From positions 1 to 64,000 of the IMG/VR virus record IMGVR_UViG_3300046171_000252: DNA of 64,000 bases; one strand, written 5' to 3'. Shown here one piece after another: positions 1 through 17,819 of the stretch. The position numbers and the translations under genes were made by a program. The notes under the pieces are model-generated. The model saw only the letters and a list, made by a program, of their open reading frames with translations, made no database searches and was not told the origin of the DNA. Position 1 is the first letter of the stretch, and each line of letters opens with the position of its first letter. The DNA comes from a virus.

Positions 1-2
1 CT

Positions 3-635
3 CTGAAGTCTCGTCGTCAGATGGCAGAGGGTTATATGTACAAACTCATTGAGATGAAAGAAAAGGTCCGTGAGTTTGACTTTAAGTGGGCAGATAAGGA
101 TAAAGCACAACCAATTTTTTGGGAAGAAGGTGGACCCGGTGGTGGTTCCAAGAAACTGTGTTGGTTTGATTTAGATGAACTTACACTGTCTCATTATCTG
201 AAGTCTTCTGAACTTGAGATTCGTGATCGTCTTCACCAGATGCAACATCTAGATAAGATTCTTGATAAATTGATGGAAAAGAATGATGGCAAACCAGTCA
301 CCCGAGAACAATTCCTTGATGCTGATGGGCAGTATTGGGAAAGAAGATTTGCCGATCAGGCTATGGATGAAATGATCGCGGCACAAACTGGCATCTCTAT
401 TGGTAACCTACACAGTATGCGTCGTGCTTCTGCACCTGCAATTGTTGATAAGAGAAATGAACTGCCAGAAGGTTATATGCCTCTGAATAAGATTCTTGAA
501 AGTCCTCAAGGTAAGATGGACTTCCTGAATGATCTGCAGAAGAAAGTTCTCACAGGTATCCAAGAAGTTACTGGTGAAAATCTTGGTATGATTGCCGGTT
601 CTCCAGAAGAGGAGCAAAAGAAACTCCAAGGTTGA
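3..635 (+). CDS. hypothetical protein, 5'-truncated by the window edge
   Basis: The frame is open back to the window edge, so this is probably the C-terminal part of a larger protein; an in-frame ATG at 21 is a possible internal or true start. The visible part is about 205 residues, hydrophilic and mostly helical, with no membrane segment. A glycine run (GGPGGG) lies near residue 40 and an acidic/lysine-rich end follows. It stops at a TGA two bases before the next gene's ATG, so it is probably co-transcribed with the oxygenase-like gene and the first fibre. I do not recognise the family; a virion or fibre-assembly role is suggested only by position. Confidence 0.7.
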   Translation: MKSRRQMAEGYMYKLIEMKEKVREFDFKWADKDKAQPIFWEEGGPGGGSKKLCWFDLDELTLSHYLKSSELEIRDRLHQMQHLDKILDKLMEKNDGKPVTREQFLDADGQYWERRFADQAMDEMIAAQTGISIGNLHSMRRASAPAIVDKRNELPEGYMPLNKILESPQGKMDFLNDLQKKVLTGIQEVTGENLGMIAGSPEEEQKKLQG

Positions 636-636
636 T

Positions 637-1170
637 ATGAACCAGAAGATTATTGTTGCCGATGACTTTTATGATATCGCACATCCATATCATAAAGGCA
701 TCGTAGAAGGTGAACCAATTTTTACTGATGAAGCACCCCAGAAAATTTCACATCTTCTGGGTCGTGAGATAAAAGTAGAGAACTTATTTAATGAAGTTGC
801 TCCATCCAAGACTCCAAATCCAATCACTGCTAATCTTGCCTGTGATTGGATTGCGGTTATCTATCTGACGATGCCTGGTGATTGTGTATCACAAAGAGGC
901 ATGAGTTTTTATAGTCATTTAAGTACAGGATTTGATGCATTCCCTGATGAGTATGCCCGTCAGTTACATGGAATACAGACACAAGAAGACATTATGGCAA
1001 CATTTAATATTGATAATAGAGAAGAGTGGAAAGAATATTCTAATGTATATGTAAAATATAATCGTATTGTATTATTCGGTGCTGATTTATGGCATTCATA
1101 TGGTAAAGGTTTTGGTGAGCAACTAAATAACTCAATGATATACCAGAAGCTGTTAATACAAAATGCCTAG
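637..1170 (+). CDS. DUF6445-type oxygenase-like protein (degenerate active site?)
   Basis: The 177-residue protein opens with KIIVADDFYD, the same opening as the protein at 5899 (NIIVVDDFYD). Both share a core ending in YNR-VLF...LWHS, so they are paralogues of a 2-oxoglutarate/Fe(II) oxygenase-like family common in cyanophages (DUF6445-like, from memory). The 5899 protein has an HVD metal-binding pair before its central strand; here the equivalent segment reads ANLACDW, so the H-x-D appears lost while the distal WHS is kept. It may be inactive or use other ligands. The start follows AAGG and the gene overlaps the first fibre gene by 8 bases, which points to joint expression and a fibre-related role (inference). 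Confidence 0.65.
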   Translation: MNQKIIVADDFYDIAHPYHKGIVEGEPIFTDEAPQKISHLLGREIKVENLFNEVAPSKTPNPITANLACDWIAVIYLTMPGDCVSQRGMSFYSHLSTGFDAFPDEYARQLHGIQTQEDIMATFNIDNREEWKEYSNVYVKYNRIVLFGADLWHSYGKGFGEQLNNSMIYQKLLIQNA

Positions 1171-4100
1171 AGGAATATTTAGATTAAAACAGGTATATGA
1201 AGAGCAGTTATCTGGTAACTGGTCTGAGAAAAAAGATGTCTGGAATACTCCGAGTCCTTTTAATGCCACACATCCTTTTGGTTACTTTGGTGGTGGTCGT
1301 GCTCCAAGTGTAGTATCAACAGTAGATCGTATTGATTATTCTAATGATACGGCAACGGCATCACTAAAAGGACCATTAAGTGCTGCTATAAGCATTACGG
1401 GAGCAACAGGTAATGCCAACTTCGGTTACCATGGTGGTGGTTATCCTGGTCCAGTAGTATCAACAGTAGATCGTATTGATTATACTAATGATACTGCAAC
1501 TGCATCAACAAAAGGACCATTAAGTGTTGCTAGATATGCTCCAGCAGCAACCGGCAATACTTCCTTTGGTTACTTTGGTGGTGGTTATGCTGGTGGTGGT
1601 GTGTCAACAGTAGACCGTGTAGATTATTCTAATGATACTGGAACAGCACCAGCAAAAGGTCCATTAAGTGTTATCAGACACTATCATGGAGCAACAGGTA
1701 ATGCAGACTTTGGTTACTTTGGTGGTGGTTCTGGACCAAAATCATCAGTAGACCGTATTGATTACTCTAATGACACTGCAACAGCATCACCAAAAGGGCC
1801 ATTAAGTCTTGCTAGAGGTGGTCCAGCAGCAACAGGAAATTCATCCTTTGGATACTTTGGTGGTGGTTATCCTGGTCCAAGATCAACAGTAGATCGTATT
1901 GATTATTCTAATGACACTGCCACAGCAGTAGCAAAAGGACCATTAAGTAGTGCTAGATATTCACAGGGAGCAACGGGTAGTGCTTCCTTTGGTTATTTTG
2001 GTGGTGGCGAACCTGGTCCAGCAGTATCAAATGTAGACCGCATTGATTACTCTAATGATACGGCAACAGCATCACCAAAAGGACCATTGAATGTTGCTAG
2101 ATTTATGGCTGCAGCAACAAGTTCTCAGGCTAATGGAATCACGGATGAAACATTATTCCCGGCACCAACAGTAAGAGAAAATGTAGCACCACAAGGAACT
2201 GACTTTGGTTACTTTGGTGGTGGTAGAACTCCTGGTACTGTATCGACAGTAAACCGTATTGATTACTCTAATGATACGGCAACGGCATCAACAAAAGGAC
2301 CATTAAGTAGTGCTAGATATGGTTTAGCAGCAACAGGTAATGCTCCATTTGGATACTTTGCTGCTGGTAATCCTTCAAGTGCAGTATCAACAGTAGATCG
2401 TATTGATTACTCTAATGACACCGCAACGGCATCAGTCAAAGGACCATTAAGTGCTGTTAGTCCTGGTAGTGCTGCTAGTTTAGGCAATTCTAATTTTGGT
2501 TATTTTGCTGCTCCTTCTGCTACATCAACAGTAGAACGTATAGATTATTCTGATGACACTGCCACGGCATTAGTCAGAGGACCATTAAGTGTTTCCAAAT
2601 ATTCTAGAGCAGGAACAGGTAATGCTAATTTTGGATATGTTGGCGGTGGTGGTCCTGCAACATCGATAGTAGACCGTATTGATTACTCTAACGATACTGC
2701 TACAGCATCACCAAAAGGTCCATTAAGTCTTGCTAGAATATCTTTGGCAGCAACAGGTAATGCTTCATTCGGATACTTTGGTGGTGCTTTCCCCGGTCCA
2801 CATTCAACAGTAGACCGTATTGATTATTCTAATGACACCGCAACGGCATCACCTAAAGGACCATTGAGTTCTGCTAGAGGTCAATTTGCAGCAACAGGTA
2901 ATGCTGACTTTGGTTACTTTGGTGCAGGTTATGATGATAATCCTAATCGTGTGTCAACTGTGGACCGTGTTGATTACTCCAATGATACAGCAACGGCAGT
3001 GGCAAAAGGACCATTAAGTCAGGTTGTGATGAATCATGGAGCATGTAGTTCCAGAGCAAATGCAATCCCACTCAAAGGAACTGGTAACTTAGAAGTTCCA
3101 GTCTTAATGGGTGCTTTTAATGTCATAACACCACAAGGAACTGATTTTGGATACTTTGGTGGTGGACTTGCTCCCAGTTCTAGCTCATCAGTAGACCGTA
3201 TTGATTACTCTAATGACACTGCAACGGCAGCAGAAAAAGGACCATTCAGTGTTACTAGATATGGTGCGGCAGCAACAGGAAACCAATCATTCGGTTACTT
3301 TGCTGGTGGTCATGGTCCATTATCATCAGTAGACCGTATTAATTACTCTAACGATACCGCAACGGCATTAGAAAGAGGACCATTAACTGCTGGTAAACGA
3401 TACTATGGAGCAACTGGTAATTCATCTTTTGGTTACTTTGGTGGTGGGTCTGGTTCTGGTGGTGTTATATCATCAGTAGACCGTATTGATTACTCTAATG
3501 ACACTGCGACAGCAGTAGCAAAAGGACCATTAAGTGCTGCTAAGTATGTCACAGGAGCAACAGGTAATGCCAACTTTGGATATATTGGTGGTGGATTTGA
3601 TAATCCTAATCTCTATTCAACAGTAGAACGCATTGATTACTCTAATGACACCGCAACAGCATCACCAAAAGGACCATTAAGTGTTGCTAGACGGAGACTA
3701 GCAGCAACAGGTAATGCAGACTTTGGTTACTTTGGTGGTGGTAATGATCCCGAGCAGTCAACAGTAGATCGTGTTGATTATTCTAACGATACCGCAACAG
3801 CACCAGCAAAAGGACCATTAAGTCTTGCTAGAGCATACTTAGCAGCAACCGGTAATGCTTCTTTTGGTTACTTTGGTGGTGGTGAATCAGCACCTGGTCC
3901 AGGTGCAAGATCAACAGTAGATCGTGTTGATTATTCTAGTGATACTGCAACAGCAGCAGCAAAAGGACCATTAAGTGTTACTAGAAGATATTTTAGAGCA
4001 ACAAGTTCCAGAGACAATGCAATCCCAACTCAAAATATTGTAAATTATGCGATAGGAACTCTAGCAACTCCTAACACCGGTTACTTTGCTGGAGGTATGG

Positions 4101-5869
4101 CTGGTCCAGTATCAACAGTAGATCGTATTGATTATTCTAATGACACTGCAACAGCAACAGTAAAAGGATCATTAAGTGTTACTAGACGTGGAGTGGCAGG
4201 GACAGGTAATGCTTCCTTTGGTTATTTTGGTTGTTCTTATCCTGCTATATCAACAGTAGATCGTATTGATTATTTGAATGATACTACAACAGCATCACCT
4301 AAAGGACCGTTAACTGTTGCTAGAGCTTCTGGGGGAGCAACAGGTAATGCTAACTTTGGTTATTTTGGTGGTGGCAGTCCTAGTCCTGCAACAGTAGACC
4401 GTATTGATTACTCTAATGATACTGCAACAGCAGTAGCAAAAGGACCATTAAGTGTTGGTAGAAGATTATTAGGAGCAACAGGCAATAGTTCTTTTGGTTA
4501 CTTTGGTGGTGGTGTTCCTAATACAACAATAGTAGATCGTATTGATTATTCTAATGATACGGCAACGGCATCACCAAAAGGAACATTAACTGCTGTTAAA
4601 AGAAGAATAGCAGCAACAGGTAATGCTGACTTTGGATACTTTGGTGGTGGTGGTCCTAGTGCAGTATCAACAGTAGATCGTATTGATTATTCTAATGATA
4701 CTGCGACAGCATCACCAAAAGGACCATTAAGTGCTGCTAAACAATACACGGCAGCAACAGGAAACTCTAACTTTGGTTACTTTGGTGGTGGTGATCCTGG
4801 TCCAATGTCAACAGTAGACCGTATTGATTACTCTAATGATACTGCAACAGCATCAGTCAAAGGACCATTGAGTGCTGCTAGAAAATACTTTGCAGCATCA
4901 AGTGCCAGAGCCAATGGATTTACTGTAGTCGGTCCAGCACTGGTTTCTAATGCTGCTGCAATGGCAGTGCCTAATGCAAGATCATTTGGTTACTTTGGTG
5001 GTGGTCTTCCCAGTCAACCTACATCAAAAGTAGAACGTATTGATTATTCTAATGATACTGCAACAGCATCAGTCAAAGGACCATTAACTGATGTTGGGTA
5101 TGGTTTAGCAGCAACAGGTAATAGTTTCTTCGGTTACTTTGCTGGTGGTCAAGCTCCTTCTCCTGGTCCAACATCAAAAGTAGACCGTCTTGATTATTCT
5201 AATGACACTGCAACAGCAGTAGCAAAAGGACCATTAAGTGCAGTTGTATATAAAAATCGTGCAACTGGTAATAGTTCTTTTGGATATAATGGTGGTGGCA
5301 GAAACCCTTCTTCTGTACTATCAACAGTAGACCGTATTGATTATTCTAATGATACTGCAACAGCAGCAGTCAAAGGACCATTAAGTGTTGCTAGATATAG
5401 TCACGCAGCAACAGGTAATAGTTCTTTTGGATATTTTGCTGCTGGTCGTACTCCTACTACAAAATCAACAGTAGATCGTATTGATTACTCTAATGATACT
5501 GGAACAACACCATCAAAAGGACCATTAAGTGTTGCTAGATTTAATTTAGCAGCAACCGGCAATGCTGACTTTGGATACTTTGGTGGTGGCAGTAATCCCG
5601 AGTATTCAACAGTAGACCGCATTGATTATTCTAATGACACGGCAACGGCAGCAGTCAAAGGACCATTGAGTGCCGCTAAAACTTACTTTTCAGCAACAGG
5701 CAATGCTTCCTTTGGATACTTTGGTGGTGGTACTCCTGGTTCAGTATCAACAGTACAACGTATTGATTACTCTAATGATACTGCAACGGCATCAGTAAGA
5801 GGACCATTAAGTTCTGTTACACAAAGACAAGCAGGAGTGTCAGCAGCAGCAAATGGACTTCCACAATAG
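1163..5869 (+). CDS. giant kelch-like repeat fibre A (5 x 6 repeats)
   Basis: This 1568-residue protein is predicted to be a tail fibre or adhesin. After a short N-terminal anchor (RGIFRLKQVYE...W..PSPF) it is almost entirely a ~52-residue repeat with consensus FGYFGGG...STVDRIDYSNDTATA..KGPLS..R...AATGN. I count thirty repeats in five groups of six. The groups are separated by non-repeat linkers containing SS(R/Q)AN(A/G)I, EVPVLMGAF, NIVNYAIGTL or VVGPALVSNAA, and the protein ends AAANGLPQ. Six repeats per group suggests five six-bladed beta-propellers. The 7336 gene has the same architecture with matching linkers. The gene overlaps the upstream oxygenase-like gene by 8 bases. The receptor-binding role is inferred; repeat count and grouping are read directly. 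Confidence 0.8.
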   Translation: MPRGIFRLKQVYEEQLSGNWSEKKDVWNTPSPFNATHPFGYFGGGRAPSVVSTVDRIDYSNDTATASLKGPLSAAISITGATGNANFGYHGGGYPGPVVSTVDRIDYTNDTATASTKGPLSVARYAPAATGNTSFGYFGGGYAGGGVSTVDRVDYSNDTGTAPAKGPLSVIRHYHGATGNADFGYFGGGSGPKSSVDRIDYSNDTATASPKGPLSLARGGPAATGNSSFGYFGGGYPGPRSTVDRIDYSNDTATAVAKGPLSSARYSQGATGSASFGYFGGGEPGPAVSNVDRIDYSNDTATASPKGPLNVARFMAAATSSQANGITDETLFPAPTVRENVAPQGTDFGYFGGGRTPGTVSTVNRIDYSNDTATASTKGPLSSARYGLAATGNAPFGYFAAGNPSSAVSTVDRIDYSNDTATASVKGPLSAVSPGSAASLGNSNFGYFAAPSATSTVERIDYSDDTATALVRGPLSVSKYSRAGTGNANFGYVGGGGPATSIVDRIDYSNDTATASPKGPLSLARISLAATGNASFGYFGGAFPGPHSTVDRIDYSNDTATASPKGPLSSARGQFAATGNADFGYFGAGYDDNPNRVSTVDRVDYSNDTATAVAKGPLSQVVMNHGACSSRANAIPLKGTGNLEVPVLMGAFNVITPQGTDFGYFGGGLAPSSSSSVDRIDYSNDTATAAEKGPFSVTRYGAAATGNQSFGYFAGGHGPLSSVDRINYSNDTATALERGPLTAGKRYYGATGNSSFGYFGGGSGSGGVISSVDRIDYSNDTATAVAKGPLSAAKYVTGATGNANFGYIGGGFDNPNLYSTVERIDYSNDTATASPKGPLSVARRRLAATGNADFGYFGGGNDPEQSTVDRVDYSNDTATAPAKGPLSLARAYLAATGNASFGYFGGGESAPGPGARSTVDRVDYSSDTATAAAKGPLSVTRRYFRATSSRDNAIPTQNIVNYAIGTLATPNTGYFAGGMAGPVSTVDRIDYSNDTATATVKGSLSVTRRGVAGTGNASFGYFGCSYPAISTVDRIDYLNDTTTASPKGPLTVARASGGATGNANFGYFGGGSPSPATVDRIDYSNDTATAVAKGPLSVGRRLLGATGNSSFGYFGGGVPNTTIVDRIDYSNDTATASPKGTLTAVKRRIAATGNADFGYFGGGGPSAVSTVDRIDYSNDTATASPKGPLSAAKQYTAATGNSNFGYFGGGDPGPMSTVDRIDYSNDTATASVKGPLSAARKYFAASSARANGFTVVGPALVSNAAAMAVPNARSFGYFGGGLPSQPTSKVERIDYSNDTATASVKGPLTDVGYGLAATGNSFFGYFAGGQAPSPGPTSKVDRLDYSNDTATAVAKGPLSAVVYKNRATGNSSFGYNGGGRNPSSVLSTVDRIDYSNDTATAAVKGPLSVARYSHAATGNSSFGYFAAGRTPTTKSTVDRIDYSNDTGTTPSKGPLSVARFNLAATGNADFGYFGGGSNPEYSTVDRIDYSNDTATAAVKGPLSAAKTYFSATGNASFGYFGGGTPGSVSTVQRIDYSNDTATASVRGPLSSVTQRQAGVSAAANGLPQ

Positions 5870-5902
5870 TATGCTATAATAAACAAAAGATTGATTATAT
5901 GA
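5840..5902 (+). repeat. 63-bp direct repeat, copy 1 (fibre end + promoter-like spacer)
   Basis: Exact match to 12029-12091. It covers the last nine sense codons of the fibre gene (SAAANGLPQ), its stop, a spacer with CTATAATAAAC, and the start of the next gene through ATGA. The spacer is promoter-like and resembles a T4-type late promoter. The repeat shows that the two fibre genes were duplicated or homogenised together with their downstream junction. Confidence 0.9.
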
Positions 5903-6516
5903 GACAAAATATTATTGTTGTTGATGACTTTTATGATAATCCAGAAGAGGTCAGGAACTTTTCACTGAACGCAGAGTTTCCTGATCCTGGTGATGACTAT
6001 ACATATCCTGGAAAAAACTCAGAAGGTTCATATTATTCTGAAGAAATTCATAAAAAATTTGAGGATCTTGCCAAAGAACCACTCATTCCTGCAGATAAGA
6101 ATGGATACTTTCGTCTTTCATTAGAAAAAGATAAGTATAGACAAGACGTTCATGTAGATCCATCATGGGAATGGGGTGCCGTAATTTATATGTCCGACCC
6201 AAAGGATTGTGTTGATGAGGGTGGCACATCATTTTGGAGACATAATACTCTGAAGTATGAGAACATTCCCAAGACAGATTTTGAAGCACAGCATCACGGA
6301 TGGCCAACATACAAAGAGTGTTGGTGGACGATGGTCTATGGTGATGGACTAGATAGAGATAAATGGACACGATACTTTCTGTGTCCGATGAAGTATAATC
6401 GTTTAGTATTATTCAGAACTCATCTGTGGCACTCGCATAATTATAATTTTGGTGATACACTAGAGAATGGTCGTATGGTCCAGTTGTTCTTTTTTAATCC
6501 GGTGAAGGAGTGGTGA
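5899..6516 (+). CDS. DUF6445-type 2OG-Fe(II) oxygenase-like protein
   Basis: The 205-residue protein begins NIIVVDDFYDNPEEVR. Its core holds VHVDPSWEWGAVIYMSDP (candidate H-x-D iron ligands near residue 83), then GGTSFWRH, and a C-terminal YNRLVLF...LWHSH that could supply the distal His and the 2-oxoglutarate-binding Arg. This is the arrangement of a double-stranded beta-helix hydroxylase, so a hydroxylation role is likely, but the substrate is unknown. It starts inside the 63-bp repeat behind the fibre gene and is followed one base later by a sulfotransferase, which places it in a fibre/cell-surface modification block. It is the better-preserved paralogue of the protein at 637. Confidence 0.7.
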   Translation: MRQNIIVVDDFYDNPEEVRNFSLNAEFPDPGDDYTYPGKNSEGSYYSEEIHKKFEDLAKEPLIPADKNGYFRLSLEKDKYRQDVHVDPSWEWGAVIYMSDPKDCVDEGGTSFWRHNTLKYENIPKTDFEAQHHGWPTYKECWWTMVYGDGLDRDKWTRYFLCPMKYNRLVLFRTHLWHSHNYNFGDTLENGRMVQLFFFNPVKEW

Positions 6517-7349
6517 ATGAAAACATATCATTTTATGGCAGGTCTTCCACGATCCGGAAGCACCTTATTGAAGAGTTTGATTGATCAGAATCCAAATATT
6601 CATACTGAACCTGTGAGTTCTGTAATGGAATTGATGTATCATACGGAAGAATACTTTAAGCAATCAGAACAGTATCAGGGATATCAAAAACCACAGAATG
6701 CTCATAAGATTATCAGTAGTTTTATAGAGAATCAATATTATGAAAGAGAAGAAGAGATAATCATTGACCACTGCCGTGCCTGGCCAAATAATATAGAACG
6801 ATTAAAGACTTACATTACACCTAATCCAAAAATCATATGCCCTGTTCGTAATATCACAGAAGTATTGACTTCATTTATTACAATGATACATCGCAACTCC
6901 GATGAATTTAATTTTATTGATAAGGCACTGATTGATGGTGGGTTCAGTGTGGATGATGATAATCGTTGTCAGTATTTGATGGGTGATGAGGGTATTGTAG
7001 AGCAGGCACTATGGGCACAGTCTCAGGCATTCATCGGCACGATGATAAGTATTTGTTGATGGTTGAGTATGATGATCTAGTCAATACTCCAGAAGAAACG
7101 ATGAGAAGAATTTATAATTTCTTGGAGGTTGATTACTATCATCATGATTTTAATAATGTGCAGAATAATCATAGAGAAAGTGAAGACCAGTGGAACCTAA
7201 AGGATATGCATTATGTCCGTGATAAGGTCAAGAAAATATCAAAGAAACCCGAAGATGTTTTATCTCCTTTTATTCTAAATAGGTATAAGAAACTGGAATA
7301 CTGGAAGTATCCGGACAGCCCTTATTTGGTAAAAAATGGCAGTAACTAA
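6517..7349 (+). CDS. sulfotransferase, interrupted by an apparent -1 frameshift near 7038
   Basis: The N-terminal frame (6517-7059) carries GLPRSGSTLL, the 5'-phosphosulfate-binding loop of PAPS-dependent sulfotransferases, and RNITEVLTSF, matching the 3'-phosphate region. The C-terminal frame (to 7349) carries DDKYLLMVEYDDLVNTPEETM...IYNFLE, the usual C-terminal half. The two halves are one family domain of about 277 residues split by one missing base around GGCAC at 7036-7041. The gene may be a real pseudogene or a sequence error. It would sulfate a protein or glycan using PAPS. It sits between the two fibre genes and overlaps fibre B's start by 14 bases. Confidence 0.75.
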
Positions 7350-10300
7350 TAGAAGAGGAATATTTTCATTACTTGATGTAAGAGAAAGACAGGGTGCCGG
7401 AGTTTGGTCCACGAAAGAAGATGTCTGGAATACTCCGAGTCCTTTTTTGGTGCCACAAGGATTTGCTACTGGATATTTTGCTGGCGGGGCATATACAATT
7501 TCAACAGTAGATCGTATTGATTACTCTAATGACACTGCAACGGCATCGGTAAAAGGACCATTAAGTGTTGGTAGAAATTCTCTAGGAGCAACAGGTAATA
7601 AGGACTTTGGTTACGTTGGTGGTGGTGCGAGTCCTTCTGTAGTATCAACAGTAGACCGCATTGATTATTCTAGTGATACTGGAACAACACCAGCAAAAGG
7701 ACCACTTAGTGATGTTAGAAGACGTCAAGCAGCAACAGGTAATGCTTCCTTCGGTTACTTTGGTGGTGGTACTCCATCATCACAGGTTAGATTAACAACA
7801 GTAGACCGCATTGATTACTCTAATGATACTGCAACGGCATCACCAAAAGGACCATTAAGTTCTGCTAGATCATACCATGCGGCAACAGGTAATTCTTCCT
7901 TTGGATACTTTGCTGGTGGTTCCACTCCAAGTAAAGTAACAACAGTAGACCGTATTGATTATTCTAATGACACGGCAACAGCATCAGTCAAAGGACCATT
8001 AAGTCTTGCTAGAGATACTTCGGGAGCAACAGGTAATGCTGATTTTGGTTACTTTGGTGCTGGTTATGGATCTAGCATATTTTCAACAGTAGATCGTATT
8101 GATTATTCTAATGATACTGCGACAGCAGCAGCAAAAGGACCATTGAGTGCTGTTAAAGCAGCTTTAGGAGCAACTGGTAATAGTTCCTTTGGATACTTTG
8201 GTGGTGGTTATCCTGGTCCTGCATATTCAACAGTAGACCGTATTGATTACTCTAATGACACCGCAACGGCAGTCAGTCAAAGGACCATTAAGTCTTGCTA
8301 GATCATTCATGAAAGCATTAAGTTCCAGAGCTAATGCAATTCCCGCAAAATTATTACAACCGGCACCAACAGTAAGAACGGGTGAGATAGCACCACAAGG
8401 AACTGACTTTGGTTACTTTGGTGGAGGTTATGATGGTTCTACTACCGTATCAACAGTAGACCGTATTGATTATTCTAATGACACTGCAACGACAGTGGCA
8501 AAAGGACCATTAAGTGTTGCTAAAAATGGTATGGGAGCAACAGGTAATGCTCCCTTTGGATATTTTGGTGGTGGTAGTCCTGGACCATTATCATCAGTAG
8601 ACCGTATTGATTACTCTAATGACACTCCAACGGCATCAGCAAAAGGACCATTGAGTGTTGCTAGATATTATTTGGCAGCAACAGGTAATAGTGATTTTGG
8701 TTATTTTGCTGGTGGTGATACGATTATTTCAACAGTAGATCGTGTTGATTATAATAATGACACTGCAACAGCAGCAGTAAAAGGACCATTGAGTACTGCT
8801 AGAGATGAATTAGCAGCAACAGGTAATACTTCTTTCGGTTACTTTGGTGGAGGTGCAACACCTACTGTAGTATCATCAATAGATCGCATTAATTATGCTA
8901 ATGATACTGCTACTGCATCACCAAAAGGACTATTGAGTCAAGGTAGAAAAGATTTAGCAGCAACAGGTAATGCTTCTTTTGGATACTTTGGTGGTGGAGC
9001 TTCTCCTAGTAATGTATCAACAGTAGATCGTATTGATTACTCTAATGATACTGCTACGGCATCACCTAAAGGATCATTGAGTACTGCTAAGTTTTTTCTA
9101 AGTGCAACAGGTGATCAGAACTTTGGTTATTTTGGTGGTGGTCTTAATCCTGCTCTAAGTCCGGCTAGAAAAACAACAGTAGATCGTATTGATTACTCTA
9201 ATGATACTGTAACAGCATCACCTAAAGGTTCATTAAACACTGAAAAAACTGCTTTAGGAGCATCAAGTTCCAGAGCCAATGCAATACCACTCAAAGGACC
9301 TGGTAACTTAGAAGTTCCAGTCTTAATGGGTGCTTTTAGTCGTAATTTGGGACCACAAGGAACTGATTTTGGTTATGTTGGTGGTGGTTATCCCGCAAAA
9401 TCAACAATAGAACGTATTGATTACTCTAGCGATACTTCAACTGCATCAGTAAGAGGACCATTAAGTCTTGCTAGATATTCTTTAGGAGCAACAGGTAATA
9501 GTTCTTTTGGTTACTTTGGTGGTGGATATACTTCTAGTAATGTATCAACAGTAGACCGTATTGATTATTCTAATGACTCTGCAGATGCAGTAGCAAAAGG
9601 ACCATTGACTAGTGCTAAAAGATATATGGGAACAACAGGTACTCAAAGTTTTGGTTACTTTGGTGGTGGTTATGATAATTCTACTCCTGTATTATCAACA
9701 GTAGATCGTATTGATTATAATAATGATACCAATACGGCATCACCAAAAGGACCATTAAGTGTCGCCAGATATGAATTAGCAGCAACAGGTAATCAATCAT
9801 TCGGTTACTTTGCTGGTGGTGGTCCTGGTCCAAAATCAACAGTAGATCGTATTGATTATTCTAATGATACGGCAACGGCAGCAGTCAAAGGACCATTAAG
9901 TGCTGCTAGATGGGTTGTAAGTGCAACGGGAAATGCTTCATTCGGTTACTATGGGGGTGGGGGACAACCTGGTACAAGTTCGAAAGTAGATCGTATTGAT
10001 TACTCTAATGATACTGCAACTTCAATAGAGAAGGGTCCATTAAGTATTGCTAGGGAGAGTATGTCGGCAACAGGTAATCAATCATTTGGTTACTTTGCTG
10101 GAGGATATACTCCGACAATATCAACGATAGATCGTATTGATTATTCTAATGACACTGCCACGGCATCAGTAAGAGGTCCATTAACTGAGGTTAAGGGATA
10201 CACAGCAGCAACAAGTTCCAGAGCCAATGGAATTCCGACTGAAAATATTGTAAATTATGCGGCAGGAACTCTAGGGACTCCTAACACCGGTTACTTTGGT

Positions 10301-12058
10301 GGTGGTGCTTCTCTGAGTAGTATAGATCGTATTGATTATTCCAATGACACTGCAGCGGCAACAGTAAAAGGACCGATGAGTGTTGCTAGATATGGAGGAG
10401 CAGCAATAGGTAATGATTCGTTCGGTTACTTTGGTGGTGGTTCTCCTGGTCCAACATCATCAGTAGATCGTATTGATTACTTAAATGATACTGTAGATGC
10501 ATCACCCAAAGGACCATTGAGTGGCGCATTCCCTTATATCGCAGCAACAGGTAATCAATCGTTTGGATACGTTGGTGGTGGTTATCCTGCAAAATCAACA
10601 GTAGACCGCATTGATTATTCTAATGACACCGTAGCAGCACCAGCAAAAGGACCATTAAGTGTTGCTAGATTTGGTTTAGGAGCAACAGGTAATGCTTCCT
10701 TTGGTTATTTTGGTGGTGGTGGTCCTGGTGAAAAATCAACAGTAGACCGTATTGATTATTCTAATGACACCGCAACAGCATCAGCAAAAGGACCATTGAG
10801 TGCTGGTAGAAGATATTTTTCGGCAACTGGTAATGCTTCCTTTGGTTACTTTGGTGGTGGTGCAGGTGGTCAGACAATAGTAGACCGCATTGATTATTCT
10901 AATGACACCGCAACAGCAGTAGAAAAAATACAATTCAGTGGTGCCAGACAAGAACGAGGAGCAACGGGTAACTCTTCCTTCGGATATTTTGGTGGTGGTC
11001 ATCCTGGTCCAGCAGTATCAATAGTAGATCGTATTGATTATTCTAATGACACTGCAACGTTATCACCTAGAGGACCATTAAGTGTTGCTAGAAGATATTC
11101 TGCAGCAGCAAGTGCCAGAGCCAACGGATTCGTTCCAATCGGTCCAGCAGTGGTTTCTAATGCTGCTGCAATCGCAGGGTCATTTAATCCAACAACCTTT
11201 GGTTACTTTGGTGGTGGTAATACTGGATCTAATGCATCAACAGTAGATCGTATTGATTACTCTAATGATACTGCAACGGCATCAGTCAAAGGACCATTAA
11301 GTCTTGCTAGAAGATACCTAGCAGCAACAGGCAATAGTTTCTTCGGTTACTTTGGTGGTGGTGATCCTGCATTATCAACAGTAGACCGTATTGATTATTC
11401 TAATGACACTGCTACAGCAGCAGCAAAAGGACCATTGAGTAATGGTAGACATTCTTTGGCAGCAACGGGCAATGCTAACTTTGGTTACTTTGGTGGTGGT
11501 TGGGCTCCCAATTCGAGCTCATCAGTAGATCGTATTGATTATTCTAATGACACTCCAACAGCATCAGCAAAAGGACCATTAAGTGCTGCTAGAGATGGTT
11601 TAATAGCAACAGGAAACTTATCATTTGGTTACTTTGGTGGTGGTAGTCCTGGAGTATCAACAGTAGATCGTATTGATTATTCTAATGATACTGCAACGGC
11701 ATCACCAAAAGGACCATTAAGTTTTGGCAGAGATCAATTGGGAGCAACAGGTAATGCAGACTTTGGATATTTTGGTGCTGGTCATCCTGCAAAATCAACA
11801 GTAGATCGTATTGATTATTCTAATGATACTGCAACGGCATCAGTCAAAGGACCATTAAGTGTTGGTAGGCATGCTTTGGCAGCAACAGGTAATTCATCTT
11901 TTGGTTACTTTGGTGGTGGTACTCCTGGTCCAAAATCAACAGTAGATCGTATTGATTACTCAAATGATACTGCTACGGCAGCAGCAAAAGGACCATTAAG
12001 TGTTGCTAGATATGGTTTGGGAGCAACTTCAGCAGCAGCAAATGGACTTCCACAATAG
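7336..12058 (+). CDS. giant kelch-like repeat fibre B (5 x 6 repeats), +1 frameshift at ~8272
   Basis: This is the paralogue of the 1163 fibre, with anchor RGIFSLLDVRE...W..PSPF and thirty FGYFGGG/DRIDYSNDTATA repeats in five groups of six. The linkers match those of fibre A (PAPTVR, LEVPVLMGAF, NIVNYA, PAVVSNAAA) and the end is AAANGLPQ. The frame opened at 7336 runs to 8301, and the rest is in another frame (to 12058). The break falls in the sixth repeat of the first propeller at GGCAGTCAGTC. Dropping one T restores TATAAVKGPLS and gives about 1573 residues. If the frameshift is real, only one propeller is made. A tail-fibre/adhesin role is inferred. Confidence 0.75.
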
Positions 12059-12091
12059 TATGCTATAATAAACAAAAGATTGATTATATGA
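12029..12091 (+). repeat. 63-bp direct repeat, copy 2
   Basis: Exact copy of 5840-5902. It again spans the fibre's last codons, stop, the CTATAATAAAC spacer and the ATGA of the next gene, here the prolyl-hydroxylase-like gene instead of the DUF6445-type gene. Confidence 0.9.
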
Positions 12092-12750
12092 TTGATAATC
12101 CACTGACACATATTTTGATCCGACCCAATGTAATTTCTCCTGAAGGTATTCGGGAGATGGTGGATCATATTAAACAATCACCTTGTGAAGACCTATCTGT
12201 ATTTGATTCGGAGACGACAAATAGAACAGGTGAGACATCATGGCAGGTTGATAAGAAGACAAGAGACACACAAATTGTTCCTATGGGAGATTTGTATCCC
12301 AAGATTACGGAACTTCTTCATCATGCCGTAAAAGAAGTTATCAATCCTTTCTATGGTATTGATGTAACCAGTAGTGAAGTCCCACAGGTTCTATCCTATG
12401 GTATTGGTGGACACTACAAACCTCATATTGATGGTGAGAGTATCTGGGTCACACCAAGAGGTGAAAAGATTTGGAAAAAATCTACGGACAGAGATATCTC
12501 TATGGTCTTTTATCTCAATGATGATTTTGAGGGTGGAGATTTTATTTTTCCAGAACATCACATTCGTGTAAGACCTGAACCTGGTATGATGGTTTGCTTC
12601 CCTTCCAGTCATTATTATATGCACGGAGTAGAACCAGTGACAAGAGGGAAAAGATATAGTATAGTGTGTTGGGCTACGGTAAAAGGTCAACCAAGTATGG
12701 ACGAAATTAATAATCAGTTATCTCAAGAGTATGGAGTCAAAGTAATTTAA
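12088..12750 (+). CDS. prolyl-4-hydroxylase-like 2OG-Fe(II) oxygenase
   Basis: The 220-residue protein has a clear P4H-type core. HYKPHID supplies the H-x-D iron ligands (near residue 112), MVFYLNDDFEGGDFIFP is the family's central strand, and MHGVEPVTRGKRYSI supplies the distal His and the basic residue that binds 2-oxoglutarate. P4H-family enzymes hydroxylate proline or related residues in proteins using O2 and 2-oxoglutarate. No signal peptide is present, so it should act in the host cytoplasm, for example on virion proteins before assembly. It lies directly downstream of fibre B inside the copied 63-bp junction. Candidate substrates in this window are the fibres and the G-T-P repeat protein at 32239. 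Confidence 0.85.
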   Translation: MIDNPLTHILIRPNVISPEGIREMVDHIKQSPCEDLSVFDSETTNRTGETSWQVDKKTRDTQIVPMGDLYPKITELLHHAVKEVINPFYGIDVTSSEVPQVLSYGIGGHYKPHIDGESIWVTPRGEKIWKKSTDRDISMVFYLNDDFEGGDFIFPEHHIRVRPEPGMMVCFPSSHYYMHGVEPVTRGKRYSIVCWATVKGQPSMDEINNQLSQEYGVKVI

Positions 12751-12753
12751 ATT

Positions 12754-14163
12754 ATGGCAAACATTTTGGGATTGCAGTTCGGACATGATGGATCCGTTTG
12801 CCTTGTTAAGAATGGTAAGTTAGAGTTTGCCATTGGAACAGAAAGAATTACTGGTGTTAAAAAGCAACAAGGATTTACAGACGAGGTTATAAATTATGCT
12901 TTGGACTCTTGTGGTTTAACAGTTGATGATATTGATTGTGTTGCCACCAATGATTTTAAGCAAGAATTTTTTGGTAATGAATATCTTGTAGATAATTTTA
13001 TTATTCAGGGTAGAGAGATTAAGTGTTATATTATTTCTCACCATCTAGCACACTGTGCCTCTGCATATTATACTAGTCCATTTAATGAAGCACATTGTTT
13101 CAGTATGGATTGTAGTATGGGAAAGATAGAAGCAAACTCTGTGGTGGCATATGGTAAAGGGAAGAAACTTTTTGCCGAATATTGTCCCGGAGAAATGGTC
13201 GGAGTATTATATGGTGAAGTAACAGAGAAGTTAGGACTCGGACCTGCACTTCATAAGGCAGGAACAACAATGGGTCTCTCATCATATGGGACACCATTTG
13301 ATTTTGATTATCAATCTTATACTGATGACATCAAACATAAGATGGATGTGGCAGCATCCGTTCAGAATTTGTTTGAGAATAAAGTATTGAGTGTCTTGAA
13401 TGATATAGATCAGAACTCTGATAATCTTTGTCTCTCCGGAGGATCATTTTTAAATTGTAATGCTAACTCAGAGGTCGTAAGAAAATCTAAATTTAAACAG
13501 TTTCATCACTTTCCGGCATGTGGTGATGATGGAACGGCAGTTGGTTCTGCACTTTATGTTGCTCATCATATTCTTGGAGAGGCAAGGTATGATTATGAAC
13601 CACAAGACATCTGTTATACCGGAAGAGATTATCCAAGTCAGACACCGGACTATAATCACATAGCAAGACAAATTGCCGATGGTAAAATAATTGGTTGGTT
13701 TCAGGGCAAATCAGAGTTTGGTCCAAGAGCACTAGGTAATCGTTCTATTCTTGCAGACCCAAGAAACTTTCATAATCGTGAACTCATCAATCATGTCGTG
13801 AAGAATAGAGAATGGTTCCGTCCTTTTGCTCCTGTTGTATTAGAAGAGTGCTATCAAGATTGGTTTGACTTTCCTATCCCCAGTCCCTACATGCTTTATA
13901 CCGCACAGGTGAAGCAACCAGAAAAAGTTCCAGCCATAACTCATGTTGATGGGTCTGCCAGATTTCAGACAGTCACAGAGAAATCTAATAAGCACTACTA
14001 TAATATTATTAAAGCATTTGGAGAACTAACTGGTGTGCCTGTTCTACTGAATACAAGTTTAAATGGAAACGGACAACCCATATTAGAAACCGAAGAGGAC
14101 GCACAAGAGTTTTACAAAAATTCTAAACTTGATATGATGATTATCAATGGTGCTATAATATAA
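12754..14163 (+). CDS. carbamoyltransferase (NodU/CmcH family)
   Basis: The 469-residue protein has the NodU/CmcH layout: an N-terminal actin-like domain opening ILGLQFGHDGSVCLV and GTERITG, then the family signature KSEFGPRALGNRSILADPR near residue 328, and RPFAPVVLEE. Family members transfer carbamoyl from carbamoyl phosphate to a hydroxyl, usually on a sugar. It is somewhat shorter than the ~550-600 residues of bacterial NodU. It follows the prolyl-hydroxylase-like gene by three bases and closes the fibre/modification block, so a role in decorating a surface or fibre sugar or hydroxyl is plausible but unproven. Confidence 0.85.
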   Translation: MANILGLQFGHDGSVCLVKNGKLEFAIGTERITGVKKQQGFTDEVINYALDSCGLTVDDIDCVATNDFKQEFFGNEYLVDNFIIQGREIKCYIISHHLAHCASAYYTSPFNEAHCFSMDCSMGKIEANSVVAYGKGKKLFAEYCPGEMVGVLYGEVTEKLGLGPALHKAGTTMGLSSYGTPFDFDYQSYTDDIKHKMDVAASVQNLFENKVLSVLNDIDQNSDNLCLSGGSFLNCNANSEVVRKSKFKQFHHFPACGDDGTAVGSALYVAHHILGEARYDYEPQDICYTGRDYPSQTPDYNHIARQIADGKIIGWFQGKSEFGPRALGNRSILADPRNFHNRELINHVVKNREWFRPFAPVVLEECYQDWFDFPIPSPYMLYTAQVKQPEKVPAITHVDGSARFQTVTEKSNKHYYNIIKAFGELTGVPVLLNTSLNGNGQPILETEEDAQEFYKNSKLDMMIINGAII

Positions 14164-14166: not shown

Positions 14167-14188
14167 TTTGAAAGTTATCTCACAAAAA

Positions 14189-14578
14189 ATGGCAAAATAT
14201 CTAAAGCATTATTGGAAGAAAAATGGTTCTTGGTTAACCGATCCCGGTACATATGTAGAACAACATCACCCAGAAGCAGACTATCCTGGTCTTGGAGTAA
14301 AGGTCTGGATGCACGACTCTGATGGTGTTGATGTCTGCCTTTCTGAAGTTCCTGATAGCACTACGATTTCTACTATTAATGTAGGTTCTAAGAAAGCTGT
14401 TATGGAACTGACCGAAACGCAATTTAATTCTGTCAAAACTCCTCTTGATGAAGAATCAGTTCTTCGCCAAGCAGCAATGGAGGCAGAAATGAGTGGTGAT
14501 ACTGACACCGCAGCAACTAAGAATACTGCTGCAGCTGCCAAAGCAACCGAAGCACAGAATGCACTGAATGCACTCTGA
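14189..14578 (+). CDS. conserved hypothetical protein
   Basis: The 129-residue protein starts MAKYLKHYWKKNGSW. A TTG at 14168 would add seven residues, but the ATG is preferred because it lies just downstream of the TATAAATA late promoter. The first part is soluble and beta-rich (PGLGVKVWMHDSDGVDVCLSEVP), and the C-terminus is a low-complexity alanine/threonine helix (DTAATKNTAAAAKATEAQNAL). I do not recognise a family. It is the last gene of the adhesion block and may be a small virion protein. Confidence 0.6.
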   Translation: MAKYLKHYWKKNGSWLTDPGTYVEQHHPEADYPGLGVKVWMHDSDGVDVCLSEVPDSTTISTINVGSKKAVMELTETQFNSVKTPLDEESVLRQAAMEAEMSGDTDTAATKNTAAAAKATEAQNALNAL

Positions 14579-16798: not shown

Positions 16799-16824
16799 GG
16801 GGGGTTGACTAACCCCCCTTTTTT
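16799..16824 (+). terminator. intrinsic terminator
   Basis: GGGGGGTT (16799-16806) pairs with AACCCCCC (16811-16818) around GACT and is followed by six T. It ends the riboswitch/DUF4278 transcript. Confidence 0.9.
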
Positions 16825-16855
16825 ATGTAAAATACCTATAATCATATACAATTTT

Positions 16856-17026
16856 ATGGAAAAGGATAGATTAAAACTAATTGTCCGGAATTTAGAATTG
16901 TTAGTCGATGCTCTAAAATCCGAAGTATATTCTGACAGAGAGTTATGTGTTTCCAAACAAGAAAACTTTGATGACCCAGCTTCTAACTATATCATGGACT
17001 ATGACGAAGTTTTTGAGGATGATTGA
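16856..17026 (+). CDS. small acidic hypothetical protein
   Basis: 56 residues from the ATG at 16856; longer in-frame starts would run through the terminator. A TATAAT lies at 16837-16842. The helical N-terminus (DRLKLIVRNLELLVDALKSEVYSD) resembles a small coiled coil, and the tail is acidic (MDYDEVFEDD). Its stop overlaps the next start. Function unknown; it begins the thyX operon. Confidence 0.65.
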   Translation: MEKDRLKLIVRNLELLVDALKSEVYSDRELCVSKQENFDDPASNYIMDYDEVFEDD

Positions 17027-17187
17027 TGAAAACTAAGCAATTGATTAAAGACCTTAGAAGTGCAATTTCTCAAGATTATTTGTATAATAGTGATGAGCTT
17101 AAATACATGCAAGAGCAACTTGACCAACTGGAACTATCAGTAAAAAGAATTCCAAGAACAAAACCCAAAGGATTTGGTGAAAAATGA
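17026..17187 (+). CDS. small helical hypothetical protein
   Basis: 53 residues, ATG overlapping the previous stop (TGATG), and its own stop overlapping thyX (ATGA). It is a predicted helical hairpin (KQLIKDLRSAI...ELKYMQEQLDQLELSV) with a basic tail (KRIPRTKPKGFGEK). The tight overlaps on both sides support it as a real gene translated with thyX. Function unknown. Confidence 0.65.
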   Translation: MKTKQLIKDLRSAISQDYLYNSDELKYMQEQLDQLELSVKRIPRTKPKGFGEK

Positions 17188-17819
17188 CTGTTAAACTTAT
17201 AAGTGTCACTCCTGATGCAGAACAAACCATGGCATATATTGCCAGGGTTTCGAATCCATCAAATCAGAATAATGAAAAGTATGCAGGTCTGCTGAAGTAT
17301 TGCATCAAACATAATCATTGGTCGGTATTTGAACAATCTACAATGACTCTGGAGATTGAGACTACTCGTGCCATTGCAGCTCAGATTTTAAGGCATCGTA
17401 GTTTTACATATCAGGAATTTTCACAACGATATGCTGATTCTTCAATGCTGGCAAAGAAAATTGCTTTACCAGAACTACGTCGTCAGGATGATAAGAATCG
17501 TCAAAACTCTATTGACGATCTAGATCCTTTTGAGGTTCAGATTCTAGAGAAACAGATGGCCACTTTGTTTGATTCCGCCATGTCATTGTATCAGCAAATG
17601 CTTGAGCGTGGTGTAGCAAAAGAATGTGCTCGTATGGTGCTTCCATTATGCACACCCACACGAATCTATATGACAGGTTCATGTCGTTCATGGATTCATT
17701 ACATCACCCTGAGGTCCGCACATGGCACTCAGAAAGAACATATGGACATCGCAGAAGCATGTAGAAAAGTCTTCATTGAACAGTTTCCTGCTGTTTCTGA
17801 ATCCCTTGAATGGGTCTAA
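17184..17819 (+). CDS. thyX: flavin-dependent thymidylate synthase ThyX
   Basis: 211 residues, typical ThyX length. The family signature is RHRSFTYQEFSQRY near residue 70 (the RHR-x7-S motif that positions FAD and dUMP). C-terminal CRSWIHYITLRSAHGTQKEHMDIA matches the conserved helix with substrate-binding Arg residues. The enzyme makes dTMP from dUMP with methylenetetrahydrofolate, FAD and NADPH. It is common in T4-like cyanophages, where it supplies thymidine for phage DNA. It is translationally coupled to two small upstream genes. Confidence 0.95.
   Translation: MTVKLISVTPDAEQTMAYIARVSNPSNQNNEKYAGLLKYCIKHNHWSVFEQSTMTLEIETTRAIAAQILRHRSFTYQEFSQRYADSSMLAKKIALPELRRQDDKNRQNSIDDLDPFEVQILEKQMATLFDSAMSLYQQMLERGVAKECARMVLPLCTPTRIYMTGSCRSWIHYITLRSAHGTQKEHMDIAEACRKVFIEQFPAVSESLEWV

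Follow-up and report, generated by a model that had tools for sequence, protein, structure and literature searches.

Here we describe two very long repeat genes, gene A and gene B, that lie side by side in the window (the whole stretch of DNA analysed, positions 1 to 64,000 of the IMG/VR virus record IMGVR_UViG_3300046171_000252; 64,000 nucleotides), together with a third paralogue, gene C, elsewhere in the same record. Gene A is a single open reading frame (ORF) of 1568 amino acids that encodes 30 repeat units in five groups of six, spaced 46-51 amino acids apart within a group and 67-77 following each sixth unit. Gene B (7336-12058, + strand) is grouped in the same way, as 6 + 24 units with spacings of 46-52 amino acids within groups and 65-76 between them, and a frame break near 8270-8280, within block 1, splits it into two ORFs. 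Gene C (200223-204992 of the whole record, outside the window; 1589 amino acids) again has 30 units as five times six. An 814-base overlap (99.3% identity, six mismatches; window 1-814 against 16804-17617 of locus L009) joins the two ends of the 207,616-base record, which is therefore either circular or circularly permuted, though its ends are not flagged as such. Gene C accordingly lies about 3.0 kilobases (kb) upstream of gene A, with C, A and B forming one cluster across the contig ends. A sequence-only reading of the window had described twin fibre genes, each with five blocks of six repeats of about 52 residues and matching non-repeat linkers between blocks. The grouping stands for gene A, and for gene B once the frame break is bridged, and the linkers do correspond by position across the paralogues, whereas the unit averages about 48 residues (genes A and B) and the genes number three rather than two.

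In order, each unit consists of GY(F/W)..G, a loop of variable sequence, (S/T).VDRIDYSNDT, KGPLS.(A)R, another variable stretch and AATGN. The blocks of gene A follow a short N-terminal segment that is likely an anchor; compared with a phage collection, this segment matched Synechococcus phage S-SKS1 (two records, E 9e-3) and no other phage fibres. Block pairs have mean identities of 68% at the same position (n = 15), 65% in the same gene (n = 30) and 66% otherwise (n = 60), and the idea that blocks fall into lineages by gene or by position was dropped, these means giving no clear signal for it. The exception is block 2 of gene A (2177-3073), which shares 83% identity with its counterpart in gene C where the remaining block pairs lie at 55-75%, a likeness that may reflect recent exchange or conversion of one entire block, that is, of a whole propeller in the interpretation developed below. 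Coordinates of the repeat genes and of their neighbours are collected in the table.

Table. Features of the repeat-gene cluster in the window (positions are those of the window)
Feature	Position	Strand	Remark
Gene A (1568 amino acids): N-terminal segment, then five blocks, each with six kelch-like units	1163..5869	+	
Gene A N-terminal segment, GIF.L..VYE.Q..G.W...KDVW.TPSPF	1163..1249	+	common to relatives aligned
Gene A block 1	1250..2152	+	
Gene A block 2	2177..3073	+	83% identity with gene C block 2
Gene A block 3, modelled as a six-bladed kelch propeller	3119..4027	+	
Gene A block 4	4049..4936	+	
Gene A block 5 and C-terminal tail	4958..5869	+	
Gene B ORF 1: N-terminal segment and block 1 as far as the frame break	7336..8301	+	
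Gene B ORF 2: remainder of block 1 and blocks 2-5	8243..12058	+	
Glycosyltransferase group 1 domain protein encoded between genes C and A, 3' part	21..635	+	whole in L009:15684-17438
DUF6445-type protein ahead of A	592..1170	+	PHROG name 'minor coat protein'; Pfam 23.9 bits (cut-off 24)
DUF6445-type protein between A and B	5899..6516	+	Pfam 46.8 bits (cut-off 24); PHROG 'minor coat protein'
Sulfotransferase, frame-broken into 6517-7059 and 7011-7349	6517..7349	+	relative in L020 intact
2OG-Fe(II) oxygenase (PF13640), immediately 3' of B	12088..12750	+	
Nol/NodU-like carbamoyltransferase	12754..14163	+	

A major capsid protein of T4 type (gp23, E 1e-155), a transaldolase and two photosystem II reaction-centre genes (183904-186166 of the record, L077-L080), which by inference are psbA/psbD, mark the genome on gene content as that of a T4-like cyanophage, with marine cyanobacteria as the predicted host group; the nearest named record is S-SKS1 (Llyrvirus, 208 kb). 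Each reaction-centre gene is in two pieces that lie in different frames, as worked out by arithmetic. Since these genes, the sulfotransferase and gene B are all frame-broken in one record, the breaks suggest sequencing (indel) errors rather than biology, and for the same reason the idea that gene B shifts frame in a programmed or phase-variable way was set aside.

Relatives of the repeat genes were gathered from 17 loci and from a set of 51 loci, for which the best 80 among 243 stretches that had been confirmed were kept, and their units were counted with the first-round version of an array profile that was refined for one round. From 144 arrays with at least five units, 98 were left once repeated spacing patterns had been removed (a filter that also took out the array in the first ORF of gene B), and dropping 22 that are cut by contig ends left 76. 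Among these 76, which are related to each other and hence not independent, the number of units is a multiple of six in 71: 6 (n = 2), 12 (n = 37), 18 (n = 12), 24 (n = 6), 30 (n = 8) or 36 (n = 6). The five exceptions are three pieces from S-SKS1, a piece of the frame-broken gene B, and a 17-unit array whose frame ends inside its last unit. Of the positions that follow a sixth unit in the 71 arrays, 140 of 141 have a spacing of at least 55 amino acids, compared with 25 of the 1060 other positions, and it is because the long spacings sit almost solely after sixth units that the six-fold grouping is not a matter of chance. Runs of three consecutive arrays recur, 12/12/12 being present at eight loci complete on their contig and at three more with the first gene cut, 18/18/18 at two loci, and 30/30/30 in our record (gene B summed across its break); mixed sets also occur, with 12 beside 30 at L034 and 24, 36 and 24 on a single contig (L036, L021). 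Two distant relatives, L083 (15 and 10 units) and L084 (12), were poorly detected and were left out of this count.

Three further observations concern the relatives. Lone six-unit arrays within longer frames (L030:839 and L055:6084; 561 and 1041 amino acids) are possible one-ring relatives. Among arrays of the 12-unit type, the third paralogue (L053:11137, L050:7128, L070:11575 and others) carries about 100 additional N-terminal residues, for which Pfam gave no match in the L053 case. A search for bacterial relatives gave 24 pattern matches in genome contigs, none upheld by tblastn, and diverged ones could still exist.

The fold adopted by a group of six units was predicted from an alignment of 61 of the 65 non-redundant blocks (from 99 in all; four divergent ones were excluded), which also served as the search profile. 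The AlphaFold2 model of gene A block 3 is a closed six-bladed propeller, with a predicted local distance difference test score (pLDDT) of 93.0 and a predicted template modelling score (pTM) of 0.92. Its best Foldseek match is Keap1 (9j7g, E 8.7e-20, TM 0.84/0.90), and VIA-align gives Z 40.2 for SAKe 7onc (275 residues, root-mean-square deviation 1.7), 38.8 for Keap1 1zgk and 38.3 for KLHL12 2vpj, the structural alignments to kelch rings spanning 275-281 residues. Searched against the PDB, the 61-block profile has matches to the kelch domain of KLHL12 (E 1.3e-6) and to SAKe designs (4.9e-5 and 0.0043), with one more, weak kelch match (0.05); in Pfam, the best kelch-type match over the 61 blocks is KLHDC2-type (1.4e-11), and block 3 of gene A matches Kelch_3 at 23.8 bits (cut-off 22; E 5e-5). 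The first strand of the model is at residues 10-14 and the last at 293-296, with strands B, C and D at the start of the block and strand A at its end, so that the C-terminal A strand would close onto the N-terminal B-C-D strands and complete the first blade; compared by strand order, this is the closure given for KLHL20 in the excerpted description of that propeller (PMC6720452). By these searches and the predicted model, the repeat unit is a diverged kelch repeat and the fold of the block is specifically kelch. No BTB family was found by Pfam in gene A or in the two pieces of gene B at E up to 1, and none of three proteins submitted to PADLOC was matched. Long, uniform repeats might instead build a beta-solenoid or an open superhelix, and a low-confidence model of three blocks together shows no closed rings. 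Set against this are the confident closed ring of the single block, the linkers after each sixth unit, the sizing of the arrays in steps of six and the kelch identity of the homologues, by which such a structure is largely refuted and now looks very improbable. The proposal drawn from the regular grouping, one six-bladed propeller per block with a repeat number that does not vary freely among relatives, is thus borne out by the block modelled, whose best solved matches are kelch, and by the relatives' steps of six.

The blades do not vary evenly. Across 1455 units the highest variability falls at positions 8 and 10-12, in the BC loop, and at 35 and 38-40, in the DA loop. The ratio of nonsynonymous to synonymous substitution (dN/dS; Nei-Gojobori counts, intervals by bootstrap over codons) over six pairs is 1.83 [1.48-2.24] for the DA loop and 1.32 [1.12-1.58] for the BC loop, against 0.04 for the CD turn, 0.33 for the AB turn, 0.38 for the linkers and 0.16-0.86 for the strands. 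Pooled over seven pairs, those at 70-97% identity out of 10 candidates, the values are 1.24 for BC and 1.81 for DA, and both loops stand at 1.03 or above in every pair. The six-pair set holds five of the seven and L071-L076, with L071-L050 and L076-L068 left out; L009-L020 is a paralogue pair. These codon counts indicate purifying selection on the framework and diversifying selection on the BC and DA loops, which lie together on one face; the clustering of variation on one propeller face, put forward earlier as a check, is what the loops display. That face has a known use, for in the excerpted accounts of KLHL12 and KLHL20 (PMC7333892, PMC6720452) the ligand pocket has the BC loops as its frame and the DA loops as its floor. 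Diversifying variation that is limited to a single face suggests recognition of a partner that keeps changing. A ratio above 1 does not separate binding from escape, and the fast loops might instead evade fibre-binding host factors, or be sites of modification, with the propellers serving mainly as spacer or shield; the similar divergence of all blocks and the modification-type enzyme genes interleaved with the arrays would fit such a role. We nevertheless consider it improbable, as selection is limited to the ligand-binding face of the kelch ring, with the linkers and the opposite face spared.

The gene neighbourhood is conserved along with the arrays. Between adjacent arrays of the relatives there are 34 distinct intervals (61 when counted by contig), of which 33 hold a Pfam-supported homologue of a glycosyltransferase or a sulfotransferase, a 217-amino-acid protein lacking Pfam glycosyltransferase support being kept apart from this tally, and 27 hold a DUF6445 protein. 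In the window, the DUF6445 protein at 5899-6516 shows by eye an oxygenase-like HxD...H pattern, as in 2OG-Fe(II) oxygenases, which the one at 592-1170 does not. A small protein (14168-14578; about 128-142 amino acids in many relatives) recurs downstream of the cluster and has no PHROG match. On the other side, gene C is preceded by proteins of 1821 and 607 amino acids with tail-fibre PHROG matches. It is from this neighbourhood, and from the precedent of the kelch protein CBB_552 detected in the virion of phage CBB (PMC5259590, an excerpted source), that we take the virion as the most likely location of the array proteins, probably at the tail or baseplate. Kelch scaffolds acting off the virion, either within the infected cell or at its envelope, and binding host or rival-phage proteins, would account for the nearest solved kelch domains being intracellular adaptors, for the lack of any signal found in the array proteins, and for a metabolic gene, the transaldolase, among the neighbours. 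The tail-fibre-type genes immediately before gene C, the CBB_552 precedent, and BFVD matches to PhiPA3, Noxifer and Phabio proteins that bear the name virion structural speak against such scaffolds, which we regard as unlikely.

The enzyme genes that lie among the arrays or follow them raise the possibility that the phage decorates its own fibres. Oxygenase, sulfotransferase, glycosyltransferase and carbamoyltransferase would then modify these so that the fast-evolving face carries a host-like coat. The otherwise variable BC loop has a recurrent proline, present in 73% of units at its position and retained at 86 of 136 against 225 of 563 for the remaining BC residues (Fisher p 1.3e-6); decoration might begin with hydroxylation of this proline and go on to a sulfated or carbamoylated glycan built on it. 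We hold this idea tentatively and with considerable doubt.

Taken together, we think it probable that each gene encodes a chain of five kelch propellers, and that the chains are virion-borne, beads-on-a-string adhesins engaged in a recognition arms race. The central interpretation of the sequence-only reading is in this way supported, and the observation beneath it confirmed, with the fold now specified as kelch and a third paralogue added. Behind the short common N-terminal segment, which would hold the chain, five closed six-bladed rings joined by short, position-specific linkers would display many copies of a fast-evolving binding face; the string-like geometry is proposed because of the linkers and the independent closure of the blocks. 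The BC/DA face most likely binds a variable partner, for example host surface glycans or proteins, and with three paralogues per phage and one to six propellers per array among relatives the set would be multivalent and adjustable in length. Several results weigh against this interpretation. Kelch_3 and Kelch_1 each match just 11 of the 61 blocks at E up to 1, and the full-length gene A product has no kelch match in Pfam at E 1; the PHROG family of the arrays (19111, matched by gene A at E 5.3e-282 and by the second gene B ORF at E 6.4e-240) is annotated 'unknown function'; and a model of the N-terminus with three blocks, from a 13-row alignment, scored only pLDDT 36.8 and pTM 0.34. The dN/dS values are simple counts on few, related and partly overlapping pairs and could be distorted by gene conversion among repeats, and the assignment of faces draws on strand order and homology, not on model coordinates. 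The window has fewer copies of the T4-type late-promoter core, ATAAATA, than chance would give (12 against 21.6 expected), with none near A or B; locus L009 has 3 against 5.0 expected, one of them at 2100, ahead of the 607-amino-acid fibre-type ORF. The usual phage fibre is trimeric and beta-structured. If the interpretation is right, marine T4-like cyanophages use a different design, a modular string of closed kelch rings with one fast face each, whose length is altered only by whole rings, and the arrays become testable candidates for cyanophage host-range determinants as well as a natural tandem series for the study of propeller evolution and design.

Kelch proteins in phages, including in virions, are already known. 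The combination of kelch, phage, receptor-binding protein and propeller was not found in the open-access literature searched, and as far as that literature goes the array system, with its one to six rings, three paralogues and diversifying selection on one face, is undescribed. The arrays share with the BTB-Kelch proteins Keap1, KLHL12 and KLHL20, as these are described in excerpt, six four-stranded blades, a unit of about 48 residues, closure by the A strand (KLHL20) and variable BC and DA loops on the ligand face; they differ in being phage-encoded, in lacking a BTB domain in the Pfam results, in stringing up to six propellers into an array and in bearing the GY(F/W)..G and DRIDYSND-type motifs. 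The SAKe designed symmetric kelch propellers give the best Z as well as a sequence-profile match, although SAKe is an artificial single ring and the arrays are natural, tandem and present as three paralogues. With the jumbo-phage proteins (CBB_552 and the PhiPA3 structural proteins) they have in common a kelch fold in a phage, within the virion in the case of CBB_552, but the excerpted account of phage CBB (PMC5259590) describes kelch domains rather than arrays of up to six rings in six-unit steps. In the phage collection, close sequence matches were seen in S-SKS1 and two single-cell marine viruses and in nothing beyond them. In S-SKS1 (hypothetical proteins SWZG_00001/00291, 00289 and 00287) the arrays are shorter, 37% identical, and set in a record that is itself frame-broken, with the third array split by the record ends so that 8 + 5 units are seen; the arrays are nonetheless homologous, a sulfotransferase lies between them, the genome is of similar size, and each of two arrays, summed across the frame breaks, has 12 units.

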